DNA of 40,392 nt from an uncultured Sulfurovum sp. (GTDB lineage: Bacteria; Campylobacterota; Campylobacteria; Campylobacterales; Sulfurovaceae), in assembly GCA_902727895.1 (NCBI GenBank), contig CACVAP010000033.1, forward strand, positions 1-40,392, read 5' to 3'. The notes beneath the pieces were generated by a model. It did not search any database. It saw only the letters and a list, made by a program, of their open reading frames with translations, and was not told where the DNA came from. Below, piece by piece: positions 1-11,069 of this stretch; the stretch's first letter is position 1; the number at the start of each line of letters is the position of its first letter. The position numbers were made by a program, and so were the translations under genes.

Positions 1-2576
1 TAGGAAATGACTTCATTATGGCAGATGGTACAAGCACCAATGTAAGTGCTGGAAACTTTAATAGTAGATCAGGAGCTAATACAACATTACAGATAGTAGA
101 TGTATCAGGAACAATGGATGTTGATGCCATAAAAGAGTTGTTATTAAGTGCTGCGATTACAGTTGGATTAGATACGAATATGCATGGTGAGAACATTACT
201 CAAGATGGTGAGATGACGATTGGTGGAGCATTAACATTAAATGCAGATGCAAATATGAACCAAAATGCCAATACGACTGTAACAGGTGGCGACATGACCG
301 TGACAGCAGGAAATGACTTCATTATGGCAGCTGGTACAAGTACGAATGTAAGTGCTAGAAACTTTAATAGTATTGTAGAGGGAGATACTACCCTACAGAT
401 GATGGACGTGTCAGGAAGTATGGAGGTTGATTCTGATGAGGATGTTGTACTTGCAGGTGCCTTGAATGTTACTGGAGATACTGGCTTAAATGGTTTAAAC
501 ATTAGCCAAGATGGAGAAATGATTGTTGGTGGAAGTAGCACAATAGCAGCTGGTGAAAATTTCAGTCAAAATGCTAATACTAGCTCAGTTGGTGATATGA
601 ATGTTACAGCAGGAAATAATTTCATAATGTCAGAAGGCACTAGTACAACTGTTAGTGCTGGTAAGTTACTTGCTGATGCTAAAGGTGATACTACCCTTCA
701 AGCCATGAACATCTCAGAGAGTATGAATGTGACAACTGCGAATGAGATGATATTAAACAATACTGTTCAAAGTGGTCTAGAGACAATATTAACTGCTACA
801 AATGTAAGCCAAGAAGCAAAACTTAGCGTTGGTGGTGTACTAGATATTAAAGTTAGTAATGACTTTACACAAAATGCAGAACAAGATGTGAGTAAGACCT
901 TAACTATTAATGCTGGTAATAACATTACTCAAAATGCTAATACGCTTACCGTTAATGATATACGTATGACAGCAGGAAATGACTTTATTATGTCAGAAGG
1001 TACAAGTACGACTGTGAAAGAAGGTAACTTTAGTAGTACTTCTGAAGGTTTAAGTACTTTAAATACGATGCTAATATCCAATGGTAGTCTGGCAGTAGAT
1101 GCTAATAAAGCGTTACTCTTAAATGGTGCAATTACAGCTGGCTTAGATACAAATATGCATGGTGAGAACATTACTCAAAATGCTGATATAAGTATTGGAG
1201 GAGCATTAACATTAAGTGCTGACAGCAATATAAACCAAAATGCTAATACAAGCGTAATGGGTGGAAGTATGAGAGTTACAGCTGCTAATGACTTCTTGAT
1301 GGCAGAAGGTACAAGTACCAATGTAAGTGCTGGAGACTTTAATAGTACTTCAGGAAGTTATACGACTTTACAAACGGTAAATGTATCAGGGAGTATGAAT
1401 GTAAATGCAGGAAAATCGTTGTTACTAAGTGGCACGATTACAGCTGGCTTAAGTACAAGTATGCAGGCTGAGAATATTACTCAAAATGCTGATATGAACA
1501 TTCGTGGAAGATTGACATTAAATGCAGATGCAAACATTAATCAAAATGCCAATACCAGCGTAATGGGTGGAGACATGAGTGTTAGAGCTGGAAATGACTT
1601 CATTATGGGAGACGGTAGCAGTACCAATGTAAGTGCTGGAAACTTTAATAGTAATTCAGGAGGTAATACAAGTTTAGAACAAATGACTGTTTCAGGGTCT
1701 ATGAATGTAAATAGCAAAGGTGATTTATTATTAAATCAATTTGTAGAAGTAGGAGGTAGTCTAATAATCAAAGCTGGAGGTAGTATTATTCAAAATCAAA
1801 ATATTGATGTTGAAGGTGATATTACTTATGAGGCAGATGATAATATTATTATGGATGCTGAGACGGAAACAGTTTCGAATGTTGGAAATATTGACTATAC
1901 AGCGAGTGGTGCAGTCTTTATCTCAAACCTTATTACGCATGGGAATACCGTTTCATTAAATGTTTCAAACGTTAATTCTGTTTTAGATTCCAATAACAAT
2001 GAAGATTCAAATATTAATGCTTCAGAGTTTCATTTAACGGTTAATTCATTTGATGATGATAACAATGCTATTGAGATTACTGAAAATAGAGGAATTCAAG
2101 TTGCAGTAACATCGACAAGTTTAAATTCATTAGCAAGTGATGAAGAAAATTTAGTATTCAATTCTGATGAGAATGTTTTAGTGATTGATAATGAAGTGTT
2201 CTCTTTTGAAGAGGCAGAAAGTGCTATAGCAGTCTATATTTTTGCTACATTAGAGTCTAGCTTAGAGTTAACAAGCCAAAATCTATCAGGCTTCTATGAA
2301 GAGTTAGAAGAATCAGATAAAAATTTAGTTGAATCGATTTCTTTAGATACAGAAGAGGGACTAGTTCTAAATGGAGTAAATGAAGAGTTAGACTTAGATG
2401 ATTTATTTGGAAAGCAACAGTTTATGGAAGATAACTTTGAAACTTTCTATAAGCAGTTGAGTTTCTTATATGACTCAGGTATGCCATTGTTTGATTTATA
2501 TGCATCTGAAGAGTATGAAAATTCAACTATTATAAATTCAAACATTGAATATTGGATTGAAGATATAGCAATTTAA
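1..2576 (+). CDS. Giant repetitive surface/exported protein, C-terminal part (5' end outside window)
   Basis: The reading frame is open from the first bases of the window, so the start lies upstream and at least 857 residues are visible. The first ~570 residues are imperfect repeats of about 102 residues, each with a GNDFIM, a STNVSAGNF-like, a VSGSMNV-like and an ITQNA/NINQNANT block. They are rich in N, T, S, G and hydrophobics alternating as in right-handed beta-helices of filamentous-haemagglutinin type. From about base 1730 the repeats stop and a non-repetitive, strongly acidic region follows, ending in WIEDIAI. No anchor helix, barrel, sorting signal or RTX nonapeptide is visible. The gene is first in a tight plus-strand series with TolC-, HlyD-, M50- and SecA-like genes, so it is the probable substrate of that machine (inference). 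An adhesin or matrix protein is likely, but the N-terminus is unseen. Confidence 0.75.
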   Translation, partial: GNDFIMADGTSTNVSAGNFNSRSGANTTLQIVDVSGTMDVDAIKELLLSAAITVGLDTNMHGENITQDGEMTIGGALTLNADANMNQNANTTVTGGDMTVTAGNDFIMAAGTSTNVSARNFNSIVEGDTTLQMMDVSGSMEVDSDEDVVLAGALNVTGDTGLNGLNISQDGEMIVGGSSTIAAGENFSQNANTSSVGDMNVTAGNNFIMSEGTSTTVSAGKLLADAKGDTTLQAMNISESMNVTTANEMILNNTVQSGLETILTATNVSQEAKLSVGGVLDIKVSNDFTQNAEQDVSKTLTINAGNNITQNANTLTVNDIRMTAGNDFIMSEGTSTTVKEGNFSSTSEGLSTLNTMLISNGSLAVDANKALLLNGAITAGLDTNMHGENITQNADISIGGALTLSADSNINQNANTSVMGGSMRVTAANDFLMAEGTSTNVSAGDFNSTSGSYTTLQTVNVSGSMNVNAGKSLLLSGTITAGLSTSMQAENITQNADMNIRGRLTLNADANINQNANTSVMGGDMSVRAGNDFIMGDGSSTNVSAGNFNSNSGGNTSLEQMTVSGSMNVNSKGDLLLNQFVEVGGSLIIKAGGSIIQNQNIDVEGDITYEADDNIIMDAETETVSNVGNIDYTASGAVFISNLITHGNTVSLNVSNVNSVLDSNNNEDSNINASEFHLTVNSFDDDNNAIEITENRGIQVAVTSTSLNSLASDEENLVFNSDENVLVIDNEVFSFEEAESAIAVYIFATLESSLELTSQNLSGFYEELEESDKNLVESISLDTEEGLVLNGVNEELDLDDLFGKQQFMEDNFETFYKQLSFLYDSGMPLFDLYASEEYENSTIINSNIEYWIEDIAI
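18..1907 (+). repeat. Tandem ~306-bp coding repeats in the giant surface protein
   Basis: The codon for the M of the GNDFIM block recurs at 18, 324, 627, 990, 1299 and 1605. Spacings are 306, 303, 363, 309 and 306 bases, all multiples of three. Copies share long near-identical nucleotide stretches around this anchor. The unit from 627 is longer by 60 bases, that is 20 residues, the size of one beta-helix coil. The array extends beyond the left edge of the window. The last unit, from 1605, decays into non-repetitive sequence, so the right boundary is approximate. Confidence 0.85.
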
Positions 2577-2602
2577 AAAATTAAAAAAAGGGATAAGAAA
2601 AA

Positions 2603-4201
2603 ATGTATAATAAATATATTATAGTTTTATTAGTAAGTATGAGTATTAGTGTACACGCAAGTATAGAGGAGTCTATTGATAAGTCATTATTGGCAGGCTC
2701 TTGTAACGGATGTGAATTGGTAGAGCTGTCACTTAATGGTTTAGTTAATGAGGTAGTGAAACGAAACTTTGAATTATATTCAGAAAAGAGTAAAGTTGAG
2801 ATTTCCGAGCATAAGATAGGTATAGAAGAGGGAATTTTTGAGCCAAAATTTCAAGCATCAGCAGGTATTTCTAGAACGAATGTACCCAATTCAGCTGATC
2901 AAAGGGTGTCACGAGGATTTCAAGACAGTTATAGTGATCGAACGCGAAGTTTTGACACAAGTATTAGTGGATTGATTGACACAGGGGGAGAATGGAAAGT
3001 TGGATTTACTGATCAGAAAAAAAGAAGTAATTTAATTAGTGAGACTCAAGATTATGATACTGAATATAGTGATGGGTTTAATCTTTCATTTAAGCAGCCT
3101 TTATTAAAAGGTATGGGTAAAGATGTTACCCATGCTAAGATTAATATGGCAAAAATTGGAAATAACATTAATAAGACAGAATATAAAAATAAACTGATGG
3201 GACTGGTAGCAACAACGATTCGTTTATATTGGCGTTTGTATGGAACTGAAAAATTGTATGAAAGTTGGACAAAGACCTTAACAATTTCAGAACAACAATT
3301 AGAAAATATTCAGCTGTTGGCACAATATGGGAAAATACCTGAAACAGAAGTACTTGAAGCACGAAGTTCGATTATTGAAAAAAGAACAGAATTAATGAGT
3401 TTAAAAACAAGAATTGATGAAATTAAAAATCAATTACTTTCTTTATTAAATGTTTCTAATTCAGCATTTACTTCAACGCTTTTTCTTGTAAAAGATATAC
3501 CAAATATTGGACAAGCTAGTGAGACATTTAGTATAGATGAAAGTTATCAAAAAGCCATTAAAAATTTACCAGAGTTACAGTTGGCTGAATTACGTGTGGC
3601 ATCGAAGAGACTAGAGCAAAAATATAATGAAAATCAACTCTTACCTGAGTTAAGTTTGGATAGTGGTTTATCTACTTTAGGATTAAGTAATATTCAAAAC
3701 AATGCAAGATTTTGTAGTGCTGGAAGGTGTAATGATCAAGTTTCATGGAATGTAGGTCTTAATTTTGAAATGCCAATTTATGGGAATACTCAAGCAAAAG
3801 AGAACTTGGCGATTTCTAAGATTAATCTAAAAAATTCTGAGTTAGCCATTGAGTCATTTGAAAAAGAGATTTATAATGTTATTACAACAAAAATTGAACA
3901 ATTAAAGATAGAAAAGTATAAGTTAGAACAATATAGAGAAGAGGTTCGAATGAAAGCTGAACTTTTAGACATAGAACGCCAAAAGATGAGGCTTGGAAAG
4001 TCTAGAATGAGAAATATTTTAGAGTATGAAGATAAGTTAATGAGTACTGAAAGAAAATGGTTGAGTTCTATTGTTAATTGGAAAGTATCTGAGGCTTTAT
4101 TATTAAAAGCAACAGGTGATTTGTTAGTACATCAAAACATTGATCTAGATTTTTCGGGAGATTATCAGGGAAACTCTGAAAATTTAAATTTATTAAAATA
4201 G
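2603..4201 (+). CDS. TolC-family outer-membrane efflux/secretion channel protein
   Basis: This 532-residue protein is probably the trimeric outer-membrane exit duct of the neighbouring export system. It has an N-terminal signal peptide (MYNKYIIVLLVSMSISVHA), then the two-fold repeated long-helix architecture of the OEP/TolC family. Visible hallmarks are the SFKQPLLKGMG strand segment around residue 165, heptad-like helices rich in E, K, L and Q around 200-280 and 400-500, and a second beta-strand segment near 375-390 (GLNFEMPIYGN). The length is slightly above the usual 450-500. The mature N-terminus carries a CxxC pair (SCNGCE) and a second Cys pair lies near 372-377, which could form disulfides. 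It starts 26 bases after the giant protein, with an AAAAAGGGATAAG ribosome site, and precedes an adaptor gene by 22 bases. Confidence 0.85.
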   Translation: MYNKYIIVLLVSMSISVHASIEESIDKSLLAGSCNGCELVELSLNGLVNEVVKRNFELYSEKSKVEISEHKIGIEEGIFEPKFQASAGISRTNVPNSADQRVSRGFQDSYSDRTRSFDTSISGLIDTGGEWKVGFTDQKKRSNLISETQDYDTEYSDGFNLSFKQPLLKGMGKDVTHAKINMAKIGNNINKTEYKNKLMGLVATTIRLYWRLYGTEKLYESWTKTLTISEQQLENIQLLAQYGKIPETEVLEARSSIIEKRTELMSLKTRIDEIKNQLLSLLNVSNSAFTSTLFLVKDIPNIGQASETFSIDESYQKAIKNLPELQLAELRVASKRLEQKYNENQLLPELSLDSGLSTLGLSNIQNNARFCSAGRCNDQVSWNVGLNFEMPIYGNTQAKENLAISKINLKNSELAIESFEKEIYNVITTKIEQLKIEKYKLEQYREEVRMKAELLDIERQKMRLGKSRMRNILEYEDKLMSTERKWLSSIVNWKVSEALLLKATGDLLVHQNIDLDFSGDYQGNSENLNLLK

Positions 4202-4223
4202 AAGTATAAAAAAGGAAAGAAGA

Positions 4224-5069
4224 ATGAAAAATTTTAGATTATTAATTGGACTAGTACTATTAAGTAGTATGATACTTAAAGCAGATGCATTTGTAGGGAT
4301 TATAAAACCTATTAAAGATATACGATTAAGTGTTGATTTAGATGGAACAGTAGATAAACTTTATGTTAAAGAGGGTTCTTTTGTAAAAAAGAATCAAAAG
4401 CTTTTAAAACTTAAGAGTCACCTACAGGAGTTAGAACTTAATAAGCGAAAAGTAATTTGGAAAGATCAAGCTCAGTTAAATGCAGCTAGAAAAAATAGAG
4501 AAATTCAAAAATCTTTATTGGATTCAACACAAGAGTTATATGATCAAACACGTGCCGTAAGTCGAGATGAATTGAGTATGTTAGAAAGTAAGTATCATAT
4601 CCTGAATGGTGAAATTAGGATGAGGGAAGAAAATGAAAAAAAAGAGAAGCTTGAGTATCGAATTGCACGAGAAATGCTGTCTAAATATACAGTTAAGTCA
4701 CCTATTGCAGGTGTTGTAACTGAGCTTGCTGTACAAAAAGGTGAGTGGGCTAAGACAGGAAAACCATTTATACGTGTGGTTAATGCAAATGTTTGTTATA
4801 TTGATATTAATATTGATGAAGCTTATAGTAGTACTTTAAAAGTAGGGGACAATATTGATTTTACTGTTGAAGCAAAAAGTGTTACAGCAAACAAAAAGGG
4901 AAAAGTTACATTTATATCACCCATTGCTGATATGGCAAGTGGTTTAATACGTATTAAAATACAATTCTCTAATCTTAAAAACCGTGTGACACCAGGGCTT
5001 TCGGCTACAATTAATATTGATGCTTTTTCAAAACCAGAAAAAAAGAGTTTAGATGCCTCAAGAGAGTGA
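4224..5069 (+). CDS. HlyD-family periplasmic adaptor (membrane fusion) protein
   Basis: This 281-residue protein has a cleavable signal peptide (about residues 1-22, ending ADA) and no transmembrane anchor, so it is probably periplasmic. Residues ~25-65 and ~155-190 form the two halves of a biotinyl-lipoyl-like domain (DGTVDKLYVKEGSFVKKNQ and SPIAGVVTELAVQKGEW), separated by an alpha-helical hairpin (~70-150). A beta-barrel domain follows and ends in TPGLSATINI. This is the standard order of RND/HlyD adaptors, but the protein is shorter than typical 350-400-residue members. It lies between the TolC-like gene and the GAF/HlyD fusion, overlapping the latter by 17 bases, which suggests translational coupling. 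Its role is inferred: linking the inner-membrane parts of the system to the TolC-like channel. Confidence 0.85.
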   Translation: MKNFRLLIGLVLLSSMILKADAFVGIIKPIKDIRLSVDLDGTVDKLYVKEGSFVKKNQKLLKLKSHLQELELNKRKVIWKDQAQLNAARKNREIQKSLLDSTQELYDQTRAVSRDELSMLESKYHILNGEIRMREENEKKEKLEYRIAREMLSKYTVKSPIAGVVTELAVQKGEWAKTGKPFIRVVNANVCYIDINIDEAYSSTLKVGDNIDFTVEAKSVTANKKGKVTFISPIADMASGLIRIKIQFSNLKNRVTPGLSATINIDAFSKPEKKSLDASRE

Positions 5070-6936
5070 TGTTAGATATGAACCCAAAGAGCTAATAGAA
5101 TATATACAATCTTTAAGAGAGTCAACTGATGATAAGCAGACCTCTTTATTAAATTATTTAAAGTATTCTGCTTTATTAGTCAAGTCTCCTTTTGCACTTG
5201 TTTTAAAAGAGGGTAATAAAAAAGATTGGAATTTATTGGGTAGTTATGCTTTTGAAAATGTAAAAGAGCAAGAAGATGAAGTAATACAATTGGCATTGGG
5301 TATGTATGCTCGGGTTGTAAAAAAAGGCTTTGCCTATGAACGTGTAACTATAGAGTCTTGTAATATAACGAATCAGATGGCTTTTGCTGTAAAAATAGAT
5401 AAAGGTATAGAAGGGGCAGCATCATTTCTTTTTTTTGTTGTTGAGTATCAAGATTCAAAACAATTATCAGAGATGATTATACGTACACTGATGAATACGG
5501 ATATTCCTCATTTATTATTTAACAAGGAAGTTACATCTAAAACAGAGAATGTTCCTGCCTTATCAGATGAGAAGCTAAATACGTTAAATATCGAGGTTTT
5601 AGATATTTTATCACAAATTATTTTTCAAGAAAAATTTCTTTTGGCTTCAATGTTTTTGGTTAATGAAATTGCAACACGATTTAATTGTTCTCAAGTAAGT
5701 CTTGGTTGGGAGAAGGGGGCTTATGTTAATCCTGTGGCTATTTCTCATATTGAAAAATTTGATAAGAATATGGAAACAGTACAAGATTTACAAGCATTGT
5801 ATGAAGAAGCAGCCGATCAAGACGAAGAGATTATTTATCCTGTTCATGAAATAAGTGATAGCATTGTTTTCGCACATCATCATTATGTAGACAAAACAAA
5901 AGCAACAGAGGTCTTCTCTGTACCATTTAGGACAAATGACCGAGTTGTTGGGGTTATGACTTGTGAAAAAATAAATGGTTCATTTTCAGAAGAAGAGTTA
6001 ATCCTTTTACGTTTACTTTCTAATTATATTACACCTTGGTTAAAAGAGATTCATGATAAAGATCGTTGGATTGGTGCCAGAGTACTATCAAAGTCTAGAC
6101 AGAGTTTAGGTAAGTTTTTTAGTTTAAAAAATACGTTTTTAAAATTTTCTGCTGTATTGGTTTCAGCTTTTATAATTTATGCCCTTTTAGGAACATGGAA
6201 TTATAAAGTAGAGGTTGTAAGTTCTTTAGAAACAGATAATGTAGCTTTTGTTTCGGCGCCATTTAATGGTTTGGTTTACAAGGTGGATGTTCATGTTGGA
6301 GATAAGGTTCAAAAAGGAGATAAGCTTTTAAGTTTTGATAAAGATGAACTATATTTAAAGGAAGCAGAAGCACTGGCTGATATTAACAAATATAAAAGTG
6401 AGTCAGAAAAAGCGAGGGCTAAAAATTCATTGGCTGATATGCGTGTGGCACTTTCTAAGAAAAAAGAATCAGAACTAAATTTGGAACGTGTACATTATTA
6501 TCTTAAGAAGTCAGATATGTTTTCTTCATTAGAAGGGGTAATTATTGCAGGAGATAAAGAAGAACTTTTAGGTGCACCTGTTTCTAAAGGGGATGTTCTT
6601 TTTAAGGTAACACAGTCAACAGAGTTGTATCTTAAGCTACAGATTCCAGAGCGTTATCTTGATGAAGTTAATAGTACCTTAGGTGGTGAATTTGTACTAC
6701 TCTCTTCTCCTGATAAAAAATACCATTTTCAAATAGATAATATCATTCCAATGGCGAGTGTTGACCAAAGTGAAGGGAATGTCTTTGTTGGAAGAGCTAA
6801 GGTGATTGGTATTCCTGAAGATTGGTGGAGACCAGGTATGAGTGGTGTAAGTAAAATTGAAGTCGGTGAAAAAAACATTGCATGGATATTGACACATGAT
6901 TTCGTAGAGTTTATACGTATATACTTTTGGATATAA
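5053..6936 (+). CDS. GAF-domain / membrane-anchored HlyD-type adaptor fusion
   Basis: In this 627-residue protein, residues ~1-345 are soluble and predicted cytoplasmic, with a GAF-like domain around 190-330 (block ending FSVPFRTNDRVVGVMTCEK, then FSEEELILLRLLSNY). A single transmembrane helix lies at ~362-381. The rest is an HlyD-like periplasmic part: lipoyl half SAPFNGLVYKVDVHVGDKV near 401, a short helical hairpin ~430-490, a second lipoyl half and a barrel ending WWRPGMSGVSKIEVG. There is a further hydrophobic stretch at the extreme C-terminus. The gene overlaps the upstream adaptor by 17 bases and ends 3 bases before the M50/HlyD gene. A cytoplasmic sensory module on an adaptor is unusual and may gate export. 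The domain assignment is confident; ligand and role are unknown. Confidence 0.8.
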   Translation: MPQESDVRYEPKELIEYIQSLRESTDDKQTSLLNYLKYSALLVKSPFALVLKEGNKKDWNLLGSYAFENVKEQEDEVIQLALGMYARVVKKGFAYERVTIESCNITNQMAFAVKIDKGIEGAASFLFFVVEYQDSKQLSEMIIRTLMNTDIPHLLFNKEVTSKTENVPALSDEKLNTLNIEVLDILSQIIFQEKFLLASMFLVNEIATRFNCSQVSLGWEKGAYVNPVAISHIEKFDKNMETVQDLQALYEEAADQDEEIIYPVHEISDSIVFAHHHYVDKTKATEVFSVPFRTNDRVVGVMTCEKINGSFSEEELILLRLLSNYITPWLKEIHDKDRWIGARVLSKSRQSLGKFFSLKNTFLKFSAVLVSAFIIYALLGTWNYKVEVVSSLETDNVAFVSAPFNGLVYKVDVHVGDKVQKGDKLLSFDKDELYLKEAEALADINKYKSESEKARAKNSLADMRVALSKKKESELNLERVHYYLKKSDMFSSLEGVIIAGDKEELLGAPVSKGDVLFKVTQSTELYLKLQIPERYLDEVNSTLGGEFVLLSSPDKKYHFQIDNIIPMASVDQSEGNVFVGRAKVIGIPEDWWRPGMSGVSKIEVGEKNIAWILTHDFVEFIRIYFWI

Positions 6937-6939
6937 GTA

Positions 6940-9090
6940 ATGAGTGAACAAATATTTTCTAATTCTTGGCACATTGTTTCAGGATTAAACGTTTCATTAC
7001 TAACCACTGTTACGGTGCAAAAACAACACTACAGAGGAGAAGAGTGGTATGTCTTAAAAGATAGTTTTAATAATAAGTTTTTTCGGATTAAACCTGAAGC
7101 TTATAAGTTTATTGTACGGTTACATACAGATGCTTCTGTGGAAGAAATTTGGGAAGAGTATCTTTCAAAATATCCTCTTATTGCACCTACACAAGATGAA
7201 GTAGTTAAATTATTGTCGCAATTACATTTAAATAATTTACTATTTTTTAAAAATAAAGCACAAAGTGAAGAGGTGTTTGAACGCTATAAGGAACAAAAAA
7301 GAAAGTTTCTAAAAAGTAAGGTTATGAGTTTCTTATTTATTAAAGTTCCTCTATTTAATCCTAATAGGTTTTTAGATTCTATTCATCCTCTAACCAAAGC
7401 TATTTTTAGCCGTTTTGGCTTTCTTCTTTGGTTAGTTATGATTATTTATGCTTTAAAAATAGTTATTGATAATAGTTCTTTAGTCTCTTCTCAAGTACAA
7501 GGAATGCTCTCTCCTAATAACTTAGTTTATCTATATATTACGCTCTTTTTATTAAAAATTCTACATGAATTTGGGCATGCTATGGTTTGTAAGAAATTTG
7601 GAGGACCGGTACATACATTGGGATTAATGTTTCTGGTTTTTACGCCATTACCTTATATGGATGCTAGTAGTAGTTGGGGATTTAGAAATAGGTGGCAAAG
7701 AGTATTTGTTGGTTCAGCAGGAATGCTGGTAGAACTTTTTATTGCAGCAGTAGCCACTGTGATTTGGATTAATACTGGAGATGGTTTTATTCATGCTCTA
7801 AGTTTTAATGTAATGATTATAGGTTCAGTTTCAAGTTTGATTTTTAATGCTAACCCTTTACTGAAACTGGATGCATATTATATGCTTTCTGATGTTTTAG
7901 AAATTCCAAACCTTGCAAAACGTGCTAATCAACAGTTTTTTTATTTCTTTAGAAAGAACCTTTTTAAAGTTGCTAATATTTTTCCACCAGGTCGTACATC
8001 TAAAGAGGTGTTTTGGTTAAATACTTATGCAGTTTTGAGTTATTTATATAGACTTTTAGTTTCTTTAACAATTATGTTTTTTGTAGCAGATCAGATTTTC
8101 ATACTTGGGGTAATAGTAGGGATTATGTCTCTATTTTTATGGGTTCTTAAACCTCTTTATAGTTTGTTTAATTATCTTTTAAAGAATCCTGAGTTAAATC
8201 AAAGTAGGGCAAAAGCTACTTTGATTTCATCGATATTCTTTGCCTCACTTTTAATCATGTTTATGTTTATTCCTTTTTCGAACTCTATTCGTGCTTCTGG
8301 GGTACTGTATGCTCAAGGTTTCTCTTCGGTTTATGCTCCAAGTGAAGGAGAATTACTAAAAGTTGATGTCTCTGATGGTCAAGAGCTTAAAAAAGGAGAT
8401 TTAATTGTTAAGTTTATTAACACAGAGATGGAGATTGAAATAGAAACTTTAAAAGTTAATCTTGAAGAAACGTTGGCATTAGAGTTAAAAGCACAAAAAG
8501 AAATCTCAGACTTAGAACCTCTTAAAAAACGGGTAGAACTTTTGAAAAATAAGATTAAAGTCTTAGAAGAGAAGAAAAATGATTTATTCGTTTATGCAGA
8601 AGTATCAGGAGTTTGGATATCCAAGAAAATAAAAATTAGAGAAAATAGTTTTATTAATAATGGAACACATTTAGGAGATATTATCCCTCAAGATAATTTT
8701 GAATTTATTGCTGTTGTTTTTCAAGAAGAAGCTTATAATTTATTTGAAACTACTCTTATGGAATCCTCTATAAAAGTACATGGTAGTGTTGAAAGTACCA
8801 TTGAAATTGATGATATTAAGTTAATTCCTTATAAACAATATATGTTACCTTCTTCTGTTTTAGGTTGGCTTGGTGGAGGAGATATTAAGGTTTCTCAAAA
8901 AGACCCTTCTGGAAGAAAAAGTATGGAAGCCTTTTTTGAGATTAGAGCGAATGTTTCTATGGCAGAGGGAAATCCTTTATTGTATCATCATCGTTCTGGT
9001 ATTTTAAATATTAAGTTAGCGGATGCTTCATTGCTAGAGCAGTTTACACGTTACATTAAACAATTAATGCAACGAAAATATCAGATTTAG
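6940..9090 (+). CDS. PqqD-like / M50 site-2-type metalloprotease / HlyD fusion membrane protein
   Basis: The protein has 716 residues in three modules. Residues ~30-105 resemble a PqqD-type winged-helix peptide-binding domain (RGEEWYVLKDSFNNKFFRI then a helical part). Residues ~150-430 are polytopic and carry the M50 zinc site: H209-E210-F-G-H213 in a helix, and N305-P306...D311 as the probable third ligand motif. After the last transmembrane segment (~425-440) comes an HlyD-like module: lipoyl half VYAPSEGELLKVDVSDGQ, a coiled-coil hairpin of about 80 residues (~480-555) and a second lipoyl half with a barrel. Fusion of an intramembrane protease to an adaptor is known from 'peptide zinc metalloprotease' annotations in export and bacteriocin clusters. 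Here it may be the inner-membrane core, replacing an ABC or RND pump (inference). It is followed 8 bases later by the SecA-like gene. Confidence 0.8.
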   Translation: MSEQIFSNSWHIVSGLNVSLLTTVTVQKQHYRGEEWYVLKDSFNNKFFRIKPEAYKFIVRLHTDASVEEIWEEYLSKYPLIAPTQDEVVKLLSQLHLNNLLFFKNKAQSEEVFERYKEQKRKFLKSKVMSFLFIKVPLFNPNRFLDSIHPLTKAIFSRFGFLLWLVMIIYALKIVIDNSSLVSSQVQGMLSPNNLVYLYITLFLLKILHEFGHAMVCKKFGGPVHTLGLMFLVFTPLPYMDASSSWGFRNRWQRVFVGSAGMLVELFIAAVATVIWINTGDGFIHALSFNVMIIGSVSSLIFNANPLLKLDAYYMLSDVLEIPNLAKRANQQFFYFFRKNLFKVANIFPPGRTSKEVFWLNTYAVLSYLYRLLVSLTIMFFVADQIFILGVIVGIMSLFLWVLKPLYSLFNYLLKNPELNQSRAKATLISSIFFASLLIMFMFIPFSNSIRASGVLYAQGFSSVYAPSEGELLKVDVSDGQELKKGDLIVKFINTEMEIEIETLKVNLEETLALELKAQKEISDLEPLKKRVELLKNKIKVLEEKKNDLFVYAEVSGVWISKKIKIRENSFINNGTHLGDIIPQDNFEFIAVVFQEEAYNLFETTLMESSIKVHGSVESTIEIDDIKLIPYKQYMLPSSVLGWLGGGDIKVSQKDPSGRKSMEAFFEIRANVSMAEGNPLLYHHRSGILNIKLADASLLEQFTRYIKQLMQRKYQI

Positions 9091-9098
9091 GGTAGCAG

Positions 9099-11069
9099 AT
9101 GAATTTATCAGAAAGTTATGATCAAAAAGTATTTAGAGAAGATGAAAAACCTTTAGATGGTTTTGATGAATTTATGCAAATGCTATCTGGTAAGTTTTAT
9201 GCTTTTTATCCTCATCGTATGTTTTTATTGAAAGAAGCAAATCAAATAGCTAAACTAAGCTTGACTTATGAACTATTAAATGAGGAACAGTTTAGTCAAA
9301 AAGTTCAAGAGTATAGGTCAAAATTTAAATTAGGAGTTGTACCTAAAAATAGAAAATTATTACATCAAGCATTAGCATTGATTTGTGAAGCCTCATTTAG
9401 AACTTTAGGAATACGACCTTATAGTGTACAGATATTAGGGGCATTAGCAATGTATGAAAATTTTGTAGTTGAAATGCATACAGGAGAGGGAAAAACTATT
9501 ACAGCAGGCTTGGTAGCTGTATTATATTCTTGGGCTGGAAAGCCCTGTCATGTTGTAACCTCTAATGATTATTTAGCACAAAGAGATGCTGAGGAGTTAC
9601 GTGAGTTTTATGAGTTTTGTGGTTTGTCTGTAGGGTTTGTTGGTGGTGATATGCAACGAGACGAGCGTAGAGATAATTATAAAAAATCAATTATTTATGC
9701 AACGAGTAATGAAATTTTAGCTGATTTTCTTCGTGACCAAATGGAAAGTTCATATGCAACAAGCTTTAATTCTTTACTTCTACAAGGGGTAAAAAGAGAA
9801 CATAGAGATGATTCTGTTATACAAGGTTTACATAATATTATTATAGATGAAGCAGACAGTCTCTTAGCTGATGAAGCGATCATTCCTTTAATTATTTCTG
9901 TCCCCAAAGAAAATAAACCTTTGATAGATGCTATTCTTAGTACAAGAAAGGTTTCGACTCTTTTAGAAGAGAAAAAGCATTATACACTTAGTAATAAACA
10001 TAAAGAAGTTTTTTTTACAGAAGAAGGTGAAGAATTTATTGAGGGTATTGTTGACGCTTTAACCCCTCTTTGGAAATCAAAAAATCGACGAGAGTATCTT
10101 TTAAAACAAGCAATTATTGCTAAAAACTTTTATTTAAATGGAACACATTATGTCATTTCTGAAGGTAAGCTTGTTATTGTTGATGAAAAAACTGGAAGAT
10201 TAATGCCTAATCGTTCTTGGGGTAATGGATTGCATCAAGCTGTAGAAGCAAAAGAAGGCATAGAGTTAAGTGATCCTACTGAAACTCATATTCAGATGAG
10301 TTTTCAGAGGTTTTTTCGACTTTATAAAAATGTTTGTGGGATGAGTGGAACATTACAAAAGTTAGAATCTGAACTTTGGCACATTTATAACTTAGCAACA
10401 TTGAAAATTCCAAAGAGAATACCAAATAAATATAAGGTGCTAAAAGAACAAATTTTAGAGACAAAAGAGAAGAAATGGCAAGTTGTAGTTGAAGAGATTG
10501 CAAATATCCATCAAAAAAAACAACCTATTTTAATAGGAACACGAAGTATTGAAGATAGTGAAAACTTATCATTAGCATTAACAAAAAAATCCATTGAACA
10601 TCAAGTACTTAATGCCCTGTATCATGAAGAAGAAGCTGAGATAATTACTAAAGCAGGAGAACTAAATATGGTTACGATTGCTACAAATATGGCAGGAAGA
10701 GGGACAGATATAAAGGTATGTGAAGAGGCTTTAACTGTTGGTGGTTTGCATGTTATCGCCACAGAACGACATGATTCGGAACGGGTAGATAAACAACTTT
10801 TTGGAAGAACAGCTAGAAAAGGACAACCTGGAACAGTACAACAGATAGTAAGTTTAGAAGATGAGTTATTAATGAACAATAGTTCTACATGGTTTAGAGA
10901 CAAAGTGGGTAGTAAGATTGACAATGGTTTTTGGAGATACATTCTTTTGCTAAACTATAAAAGGTTACAGAAAAAGAGTGATAAAAAAGCATCGAAAATG
11001 AGAAAAAATATTTTAAAAAATGACTTTTCTATAAAAAGAATGTTGTCTTTTTCCTCTAAGTCGCATTAG
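9099..11069 (+). CDS. SecA-like ATPase, short form lacking the canonical C-terminal half-domains
   Basis: This 656-residue protein has clear SecA DEAD-motor motifs: Walker A TGEGKT at ~128-133, TSNDYLAQRDAEE, Walker B IIIDEADSLLADEA at ~247-260, a preprotein-cross-linking-domain region containing VIVDEKTGRLMPNRSWGNGL, SGTL, then the second RecA fold with GTRSIEDSE, ATNMAGRGTDIK and the ERHDSERVDKQLFGRTARKGQPG arginine-finger motif. After SLEDELL only ~75 lysine-rich residues remain. Most of the helical scaffold and wing domains and the zinc tail of an 850-900-residue SecA are missing. The DEVDS of housekeeping SecA is DEADS here. Last gene of the TolC/HlyD/M50 operon, 8 bases after the M50 gene. 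It is likely a dedicated motor for the giant protein rather than the general SecA, which should be encoded elsewhere (inference). Confidence 0.85.
   Translation: MNLSESYDQKVFREDEKPLDGFDEFMQMLSGKFYAFYPHRMFLLKEANQIAKLSLTYELLNEEQFSQKVQEYRSKFKLGVVPKNRKLLHQALALICEASFRTLGIRPYSVQILGALAMYENFVVEMHTGEGKTITAGLVAVLYSWAGKPCHVVTSNDYLAQRDAEELREFYEFCGLSVGFVGGDMQRDERRDNYKKSIIYATSNEILADFLRDQMESSYATSFNSLLLQGVKREHRDDSVIQGLHNIIIDEADSLLADEAIIPLIISVPKENKPLIDAILSTRKVSTLLEEKKHYTLSNKHKEVFFTEEGEEFIEGIVDALTPLWKSKNRREYLLKQAIIAKNFYLNGTHYVISEGKLVIVDEKTGRLMPNRSWGNGLHQAVEAKEGIELSDPTETHIQMSFQRFFRLYKNVCGMSGTLQKLESELWHIYNLATLKIPKRIPNKYKVLKEQILETKEKKWQVVVEEIANIHQKKQPILIGTRSIEDSENLSLALTKKSIEHQVLNALYHEEEAEIITKAGELNMVTIATNMAGRGTDIKVCEEALTVGGLHVIATERHDSERVDKQLFGRTARKGQPGTVQQIVSLEDELLMNNSSTWFRDKVGSKIDNGFWRYILLLNYKRLQKKSDKKASKMRKNILKNDFSIKRMLSFSSKSH

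Follow-up and report, generated by a model that had tools for sequence, protein, structure and literature searches.

Giant repetitive adhesins, such as those of the LapA, SiiE and BapA types, are exported by type I secretion, for which the signal on the cargo is C-terminal. In Gram-positive bacteria, accessory Sec systems (SecA2/SecY2) serve giant repetitive adhesins. A further group of very large proteins is covered by the NCBIfam model NF012209 (LEPR-8K, LEPR-XLL), a 24-residue model of a leader, which names the giant only. Among the genomes searched here, open frames bearing this leader reach 15,464 residues (G162:C5:20029) and 18,012 residues (G150:C10:53906); the accessible passages of the LEPR-XLL papers state no exit route from the cell and make no link to a secretion machine. 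Here, we analyse a six-gene cassette in a 40,392-nucleotide stretch of DNA from an uncultured Sulfurovum sp. (contig CACVAP010000033.1 of assembly GCA_902727895.1), hereafter called the window. The window spans an entire contig (G000:C33); the assembly has a size of 2.96 Mb and a completeness of 96.2%. We propose, with a probability of roughly 60%, that the cassette is dedicated to the TolC-dependent export of LEPR-tagged giant proteins, with a PqqD-M50-HlyD fusion protein as receptor and core and a short SecA as motor.

Gene set and comparison with described secretion systems

Six open reading frames (ORFs) follow each other on the plus strand of the window, with successive gaps of 26, 22, -17, 3 and 8 bases. 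ORF calls as well as Pfam and NCBIfam matches agree with the genes, order and gaps given in a first-pass annotation, which had been made from the sequence alone:

3-2576, plus strand: giant repetitive protein, 3' end of the gene (857 amino acids, 5' open; DUF5649 repeats according to Pfam/NCBIfam)
2603-4201, plus strand: TolC-family outer membrane duct (532 amino acids; OEP 2.1e-34; TIGR01844 4.2e-25, below the model cut-off)
4224-5069, plus strand: HlyD/RND-type periplasmic adaptor (281 amino acids; HlyD_D23/HlyD_3; TIGR01730 113.8 bits, above the cut-off)
5053-6936, plus strand: GAF-HlyD adaptor fusion (627 amino acids; GAF_2 5.7e-05, under the cut-off, and HlyD_D23)
6940-9090, plus strand: PqqD-like - M50 - HlyD fusion (716 amino acids; M50 25.5 bits and an HlyD-like match)
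9099-11069, plus strand: short SecA-like ATPase (656 amino acids; SecA_DEAD, SecA_PP_bind, SecA P-loop)

The window genes include the TolC and HlyD components of type I secretion, and the cassette shares with the type I secretion of giant adhesins the TolC duct, an HlyD-type adaptor and an operon that encodes a repetitive protein of very large size. Unlike type I systems, the operon has no gene for an ATP-binding cassette (ABC) ATPase and encodes a SecA-derived ATPase instead. It also differs in encoding three HlyD-type proteins, including one fusion with an M50 core and another with GAF domains, and in the N-terminal leader of its partner giants. The absence of the canonical combinations with an ABC or TpsB partner had been pointed out in the first-pass annotation and was confirmed. 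Our own regular expression for ABC ATPases fits only one of 79 scored loci with the cassette, at a distance of 10.8 kb. No LssB-type ABC match at E 1e-100 was obtained in the genome of the window (G000, 39 of 42 candidates scored) or in its nearest relative with the set (G009, 34 of 34), other type I ABC models not having been searched, and no match to ShlB (PF03865; TpsB) at E 1e-5 in G000, G009 and G056. A linked ABC or TpsB partner was ruled out on the basis of the ABC pattern and of the missing ShlB and LssB-type matches in G000 and G009. The annotation had also considered such a partner just upstream of the window; in G009, SapC precedes the giant. As far as searched, the cassette thus appears to fall outside both type I (ABC) and two-partner (TpsB) secretion.

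Like accessory Sec systems, the cassette has an additional SecA that would serve giant repetitive surface proteins. Unlike in those systems, the short SecA is separate from the one SecA2 compared, ends before the SecY-engaging parts and adjoins TolC/HlyD genes, and the comparison with this single SecA2 gives no support for membership of the cassette in accessory Sec. The leader of the partner giants is the one described by NF012209, and its link to the gene set is a result of the present analysis. Another non-classical composite export route, the one for glycine-acylated lipoproteins (PMC7943197), has small acylated cargo instead. We found no description of the gene set as a system among the titles and abstracts listed from the open literature, preprints and most subscription journals lying outside this search, and the passages available from a review (PMC8277102) contain nothing on a SecA/M50-HlyD/LEPR system.

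Distribution and conservation of the cassette

An alignment of eight M50-HlyD proteins served as query in a scan of 84,980 species, each represented by one genome. The scan yielded at least 572 M50-HlyD relatives, the best 80 of which were retained. These 80 loci represent ten named phyla: Pseudomonadota (35), Planctomycetota (15), Verrucomicrobiota (8), Thermodesulfobacteriota (7), Campylobacterota (4), Nitrospirota (3), Chlorobiota (2), Lentisphaerota (1), Myxococcota (1) and Omnitrophota (1); three loci are unplaced. Two of them (L018 and L050) are contigs of G009 and G056 that were found again. Using our own profiles, 79 of the 80 loci were scored; L042 was dropped since the script had failed to resolve the M50 ORF of this locus, which nevertheless shows SecA and M50.

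Of the scored loci, 70 extend at least 1 kb downstream of M50, and a SecA-like gene was found in 68 of them; 74 extend 1 kb or more upstream, and in 72 of these M50 is directly preceded by GAF-HlyD. These rates are valid for the near branch as the loci had been selected by M50 and by closeness to the window. The start of 58 of the 68 SecA genes is located -100 to +300 bases from M50, judged by the ORF starts used. The two loci without SecA belong to Lentisphaerota (L031) and Omnitrophota (L085); the latter genome harbours a second M50 gene, which is adjoined by a short SecA. Pairwise distances of M50 correlate with those of GAF-HlyD (0.94) and of SecA (0.70) over 66 loci, with none of 1000 shuffles reaching values as high. 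Short SecA, M50-HlyD and GAF-HlyD hence do co-occur in other genomes, as the first-pass annotation had proposed to check. The gene set recurs far more often than expected by chance, in support of a separate, conserved cassette that has no ABC partner linked to it. An assembly quirk as the origin of the gene order was ruled out, since the same order is present in unrelated genomes. Among the relatives of the window's genome the cassette is patchy, because GAF-HlyD occurs in only 3 of 149 genomes, the window's own included. The gene set is also present in named cultured strains, so that gene removal is feasible; examples are Neptuniibacter caesariensis MED92 (L094), in which a LEPR gene with an open frame of 7,974 amino acids is located upstream of the cassette, and Methylobacterium segetis 17J42-1 (L092).

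The LEPR leader and the putative giant cargo

Wherever their start is readable, giants encoded beside the cassette or elsewhere in a genome that has it open with a stretch rich in Lys/Arg, followed by LE(P/D/E/S)R-x-LLS(A/G)D(P). This leader corresponds to NF012209, which scored above its cut-off in five of seven giant starts scanned, just under it in the giant of Azospirillum, and without a match in the giant of E. coli. A LEPR pattern written from the first cases fits 58 of 65 loci, some genes being present twice and the seven without the motif being left out of the 58. Around the motif (60 residues before to 25 after), a 12-residue stretch with a mean hydropathy of at least 1.6 was found in 12 of these 58 rows. 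For comparison, 91 of 104 TolC and HlyD proteins have a hydrophobic 12-residue stretch within their first 60 residues.

The association of leader and gene set was analysed in a panel of 321 genomes (350 asked) from the class of Neptuniibacter, which were drawn by taxonomy. Up to three M50 candidates per genome were scored, with thresholds of E 1e-20 for M50-HlyD and E 0.01 for LEPR. M50-HlyD was found in 46 genomes, LEPR in 30 and both in 26, corresponding to a one-sided Fisher value of 9e-22 in a test that ignores shared ancestry; the value is 5e-21 if the centre genome, selected because it holds the set, is left out. In 14 of the 26 genomes with both, the two matches are located on the same contig. 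Where the M50 match is strong (about 490 bits or higher), 19 of 24 panel genomes have LEPR as well. The 14 control genomes are free of LEPR matches at E 0.01. At E 0.1, LEPR was detected in 14 of 16 genomes hand-picked for the set, three Campylobacterota among them, and in one of the 14 controls. A giant gene is not always adjacent to the set, a question raised in the first-pass annotation, yet a LEPR gene is encoded in most of the hand-picked genomes. The giant of G009 that is homologous to the one of the window bears a LEPR-type leader. At sequence level, these results support LEPR giants as the putative co-occurring cargo of the cassette.

The short SecA-like ATPase

All 16 hand-picked genomes with the set carry a housekeeping-type SecA plus at least one short SecA; in the genome of the window, a further SecA of 867 amino acids is encoded elsewhere. 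The housekeeping SecA of G161 itself has just about 730-740 amino acids, and the short SecA of G153 is a degenerate form. In a tree of 54 rows (quick search, LG+G4, no bootstrap), 32 short SecAs form one clade apart from the other rows, namely 21 SecAs of the housekeeping type and one accessory SecA2, with a Shimodaira-Hasegawa-like approximate likelihood ratio test (SH-aLRT) value of 100. Short SecAs did not group with the single accessory SecA2 compared (L212, located beside its own SecY; SecY was not searched for).

A profile of 45 short SecAs covers residues 10-609 of the SecA of B. subtilis (1tf2_A, 844 residues). The AlphaFold2 (AF2) model of the short SecA has a mean predicted local distance difference test (pLDDT) value of 88.8 and aligns with the substrate-engaged SecA 6itc at 2.6 Å over 586 residues, an alignment that stops at residue 616 of 6itc. 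The short SecA retains the two nucleotide-binding folds as well as the clamp (PPXD), and Walker A, DEAD and motif VI are present in the window protein. Based on profile and model alignment, the short SecA has no counterpart of the helical-wing domain, the two-helix finger and the C-tail, which we take to be the regions past about residues 609-616 of a normal SecA. The window protein thus does not show the full domain set of a housekeeping SecA. The two-helix finger is the part of SecA that inserts into SecY. Of the 78 rows inspected for ATPase motifs, which include one housekeeping SecA as well as repeats of the window and of G009, 73 retain them; the sequence of L015 is cut at these motifs.

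The PqqD-M50-HlyD and GAF-HlyD proteins

Residues H209, E210, H213 and D311 are invariant in all 50 aligned M50-HlyD proteins. The HExxH motif and the second metal-ligand aspartate of an M50 site-2 protease are accordingly found in the sequence, and the predicted model has long helices. Pfam M50 matches 48 of 50 relatives at E 0.01, the 25.5 bits of the window protein being just under the cut-off. At the same threshold, PqqD was recognised by Pfam in 22 of the 50 and not in the window protein itself; no sequence match for residues 1-110 was found in the PDB. PqqD folds bind leader peptides. The AF2 model of the protein (mean pLDDT 86, predicted template modelling score 0.67) has a strand-rich domain at the N-terminus, then helices and a helical membrane region, and ends in an adaptor-like part. 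A fold search with the whole model returned MacA, MexA and AcrA-like adaptor chains among the best 50 rows. The M50 part also matches the daptide intramembrane protease model (2.7e-48, below the cut-off). The PqqD-M50-HlyD protein is a candidate for the receptor and inner-membrane core. In the GAF-HlyD protein of the window, a single membrane helix lies between the GAF and HlyD parts, as judged by eye.

Proposed export route and alternative explanations

In the proposed route, the PqqD-like domain of the fusion protein would recognise the cytosolic LEPR leader, and the M50 membrane part and GAF-HlyD may build an inner-membrane platform. Judging from their family, the HlyD parts of both fusions and the small HlyD would connect this platform to the TolC duct. 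The short SecA would clamp the unfolded chain and, by ATP hydrolysis, feed it into the M50/GAF-HlyD platform, not into SecYEG; this is suggested because the clamp and the ATPase are kept and the SecY-inserting finger is gone. The intact M50 site may cleave the leader near LLSA-D. The strongest hint against a SecYEG route comes from the missing finger of the short SecA, and the weakest step is the motor role of this protein. From the hybrid, SecA-powered route with an M50 core put forward in the first-pass annotation, the conserved ABC-less cassette with LEPR giants can be retained; power from SecA and a channel role of M50 stay at the level of proposals. If the cassette exports LEPR giants, it would constitute a new way of powering TolC-dependent secretion. 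A SecA would then work without its SecY-engaging parts, and it would become testable which part of SecA suffices to move a polypeptide. Tentatively, and with slightly less than even odds, we suggest an unnamed secretion class of diderms, in which a minimal finger-less SecA has shifted from SecYEG to a PqqD-M50-HlyD/TolC trunk. Proteins with a LEPR tag, several thousand to well over 10,000 residues in size, would be exported in one step, with M50 as leader peptidase and inner-membrane gate.

Several observations weigh against the proposed route, in addition to the shared ancestry that the panel test ignores. Concerning the leader, NF012209 gave no match in the genome of the window, where the N-terminus of the giant is not assembled, and none in G056 and G161 at E 0.1. 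A strong M50-HlyD match is found without LEPR in 5 of 24 panel genomes, and LEPR without M50-HlyD in 4 of 30. The upstream neighbour at L020, L021, L026, L030 and L036 starts Sec- or lipoprotein-like by eye and has no LEPR leader; the genome of L030 has LEPR giants at other positions. Concerning partners, an LssB-type match at E 1e-100 is present in 10 of 15 genomes with the system, seven of them above the model cut-off, and ShlB in 6 of 15. Concerning the motor, among the 24 strong-match loci of the class panel (L152-L175), M50 is immediately followed by SecA in 17 and by another gene in five, and two loci are cut, which corresponds to 17 of 22 decidable loci. Of the five genomes with another gene at this position, two have a short SecA gene at another position, and the other three, G370, G454 and G354, have none. 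There are 22 panel genomes with a remoter M50-HlyD, and nine were inspected: eight have full-length SecA only and one is too fragmentary. In addition, the SecA of four Burkholderiales loci (L038, L051, L053 and L056) has no ATPase motifs and is apparently ATPase-dead as far as its sequence tells; it is located at the same place, M50 and GAF-HlyD are kept, and three of the four loci are accompanied by LEPR giants.

Separately, G377 and G240 have a good LEPR match (open frames of 7,373 and 726 amino acids) and no M50-HlyD at E 1e-20; incomplete assemblies or an alternative route are possible explanations.

A remoter M50-HlyD group (Azospirillum, E. coli plasmid) has operons in the order giant, TolC, HlyD, HlyD, M50-HlyD, and no SecA. 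The giants of this group start with MALEPRFMFDAAG, followed later by LESRQLFDGAA and then by a DUF4347 domain. L012 and L101 (E. coli plasmid) represent this SecA-less sister system with a DUF4347 giant. A near search of 5426 complete E. coli genomes detected the M50-HlyD gene of the E. coli plasmid in 24 of them, at 25 places, 21 of which are on plasmids. The SecA-less relatives indicate that the leader, M50-HlyD and the HlyD/TolC trunk are the common core, with the short SecA as a frequent part of one large branch. Together with the apparently ATPase-dead SecAs they are the strongest evidence that power from SecA is not universal, and the claim of a SecA motor can therefore not be general. 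A LEPR leader followed by a DUF4347 domain was also observed in a giant beside a SecA-bearing cassette (L082:15683-22033).

Among the alternatives, a two-step route fares best, although we consider it unlikely. Here, the short SecA would drive the giant through SecYEG, either by itself or together with the normal SecA, HlyD/TolC would take it across the outer membrane, and M50 would remove the leader. The intact clamp and ATPase motifs in 73 of 78 rows, the Sec-like starts of some neighbours and the precedent of the accessory Sec systems with their giant repetitive adhesins are all compatible with it, and SecA-less relatives could rely on their normal SecA. However, the part of SecA that inserts into SecY is missing from the short SecA, most LEPR starts have no hydrophobic stretch, and the short SecAs stand apart from the single accessory SecA2 in the tree.

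Somewhat less probable still is a role of the short SecA as chaperone or clamp, which would keep the giant unfolded and deliver it, with the energy coming from the proton motive force or from folding outside the cell. The ATPase-dead versions in one Burkholderiales group, in which the remaining set is kept, and the absence of a short SecA in relatives that also have giants argue for such a role, whereas the ATPase motifs in 73 of 78 rows would be unneeded by a mere clamp.

Ordinary type I secretion with an unlinked ABC exporter, the M50 and SecA genes serving another task, is very improbable. The TolC and HlyD proteins are of the type I kind and the LssB-type matches in 10 of 15 cassette genomes would provide candidates, but G000 and G009 have none (LssB being the type I ABC model searched), the ABC pattern is nearly absent from the loci, and SecA, M50 and GAF-HlyD are adjacent across phyla. 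A processing cassette, in which PqqD-M50 would act like a daptide-type membrane protease in the maturation of an unseen small peptide, is suggested by the daptide protease match and is the least probable, given the link to LEPR giants in the whole-genome searches and an operon that includes three adaptors and TolC.

Continuation of the giant gene and neighbouring features

The first-pass annotation had described the first gene of the window as encoding a giant repetitive protein. It is repetitive and giant, but the gene is incomplete, since the window is a whole contig whose start cuts off the 5' part. Contig C54 of the same assembly (26.8 kb) is full of the repeats of the window giant, with identities of up to 86%. 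It contains a frame of 8,062 codons that is open at its start and whose last few dozen codons are an assembly gap, past which the repeats resume. Because of the repeat similarity and the arrangement in G009, the 5' part of the gene most likely lies on C54, which would add about 8,000 further residues. A comparison of contig ends revealed no overlap between C54 and the window, and a search for a further G000 contig with the start of the giant led back to C54 alone.

In G009, contig C44 carries a SapC gene followed by the giant, which starts with a basic stretch and then LEDRILLSGD. The giants of G009 and C54 share 45% identity over about 7,260 residues. An exact overlap of 56 bases exists between the end of C44 and the end of the contig holding the remaining cassette; it lies in repeats and is only suggestive of a junction of the two contigs. 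The complete gene order is likely to be SapC, giant, TolC, HlyD, GAF-HlyD, M50-HlyD and SecA.

An ending of the type YW-x-E-D/N-x-x-hydrophobic is shared, by eye, by the giants of the window, G009, G056 and Pseudomaricurvus, and most other giants shown differ from it. The acidic/aromatic tails read EYWIEDIAI in the window (2400-2576), EYWIEDIAI in L010, DYWSENIAV in L011 and EYWTEDVVL in L019. Such similar tails are possibly a second signal or an anchor.

The LEPR leader, the shortened C-terminus of SecA and two small neighbours are features beyond those of the first-pass annotation. SapC (PF07277) recurs as a small neighbour in L006, L014, L019, L032, L044, L052 and L259, and DUF3467 (PF11950) in L008, L009, L016, L069, L070 and L095.

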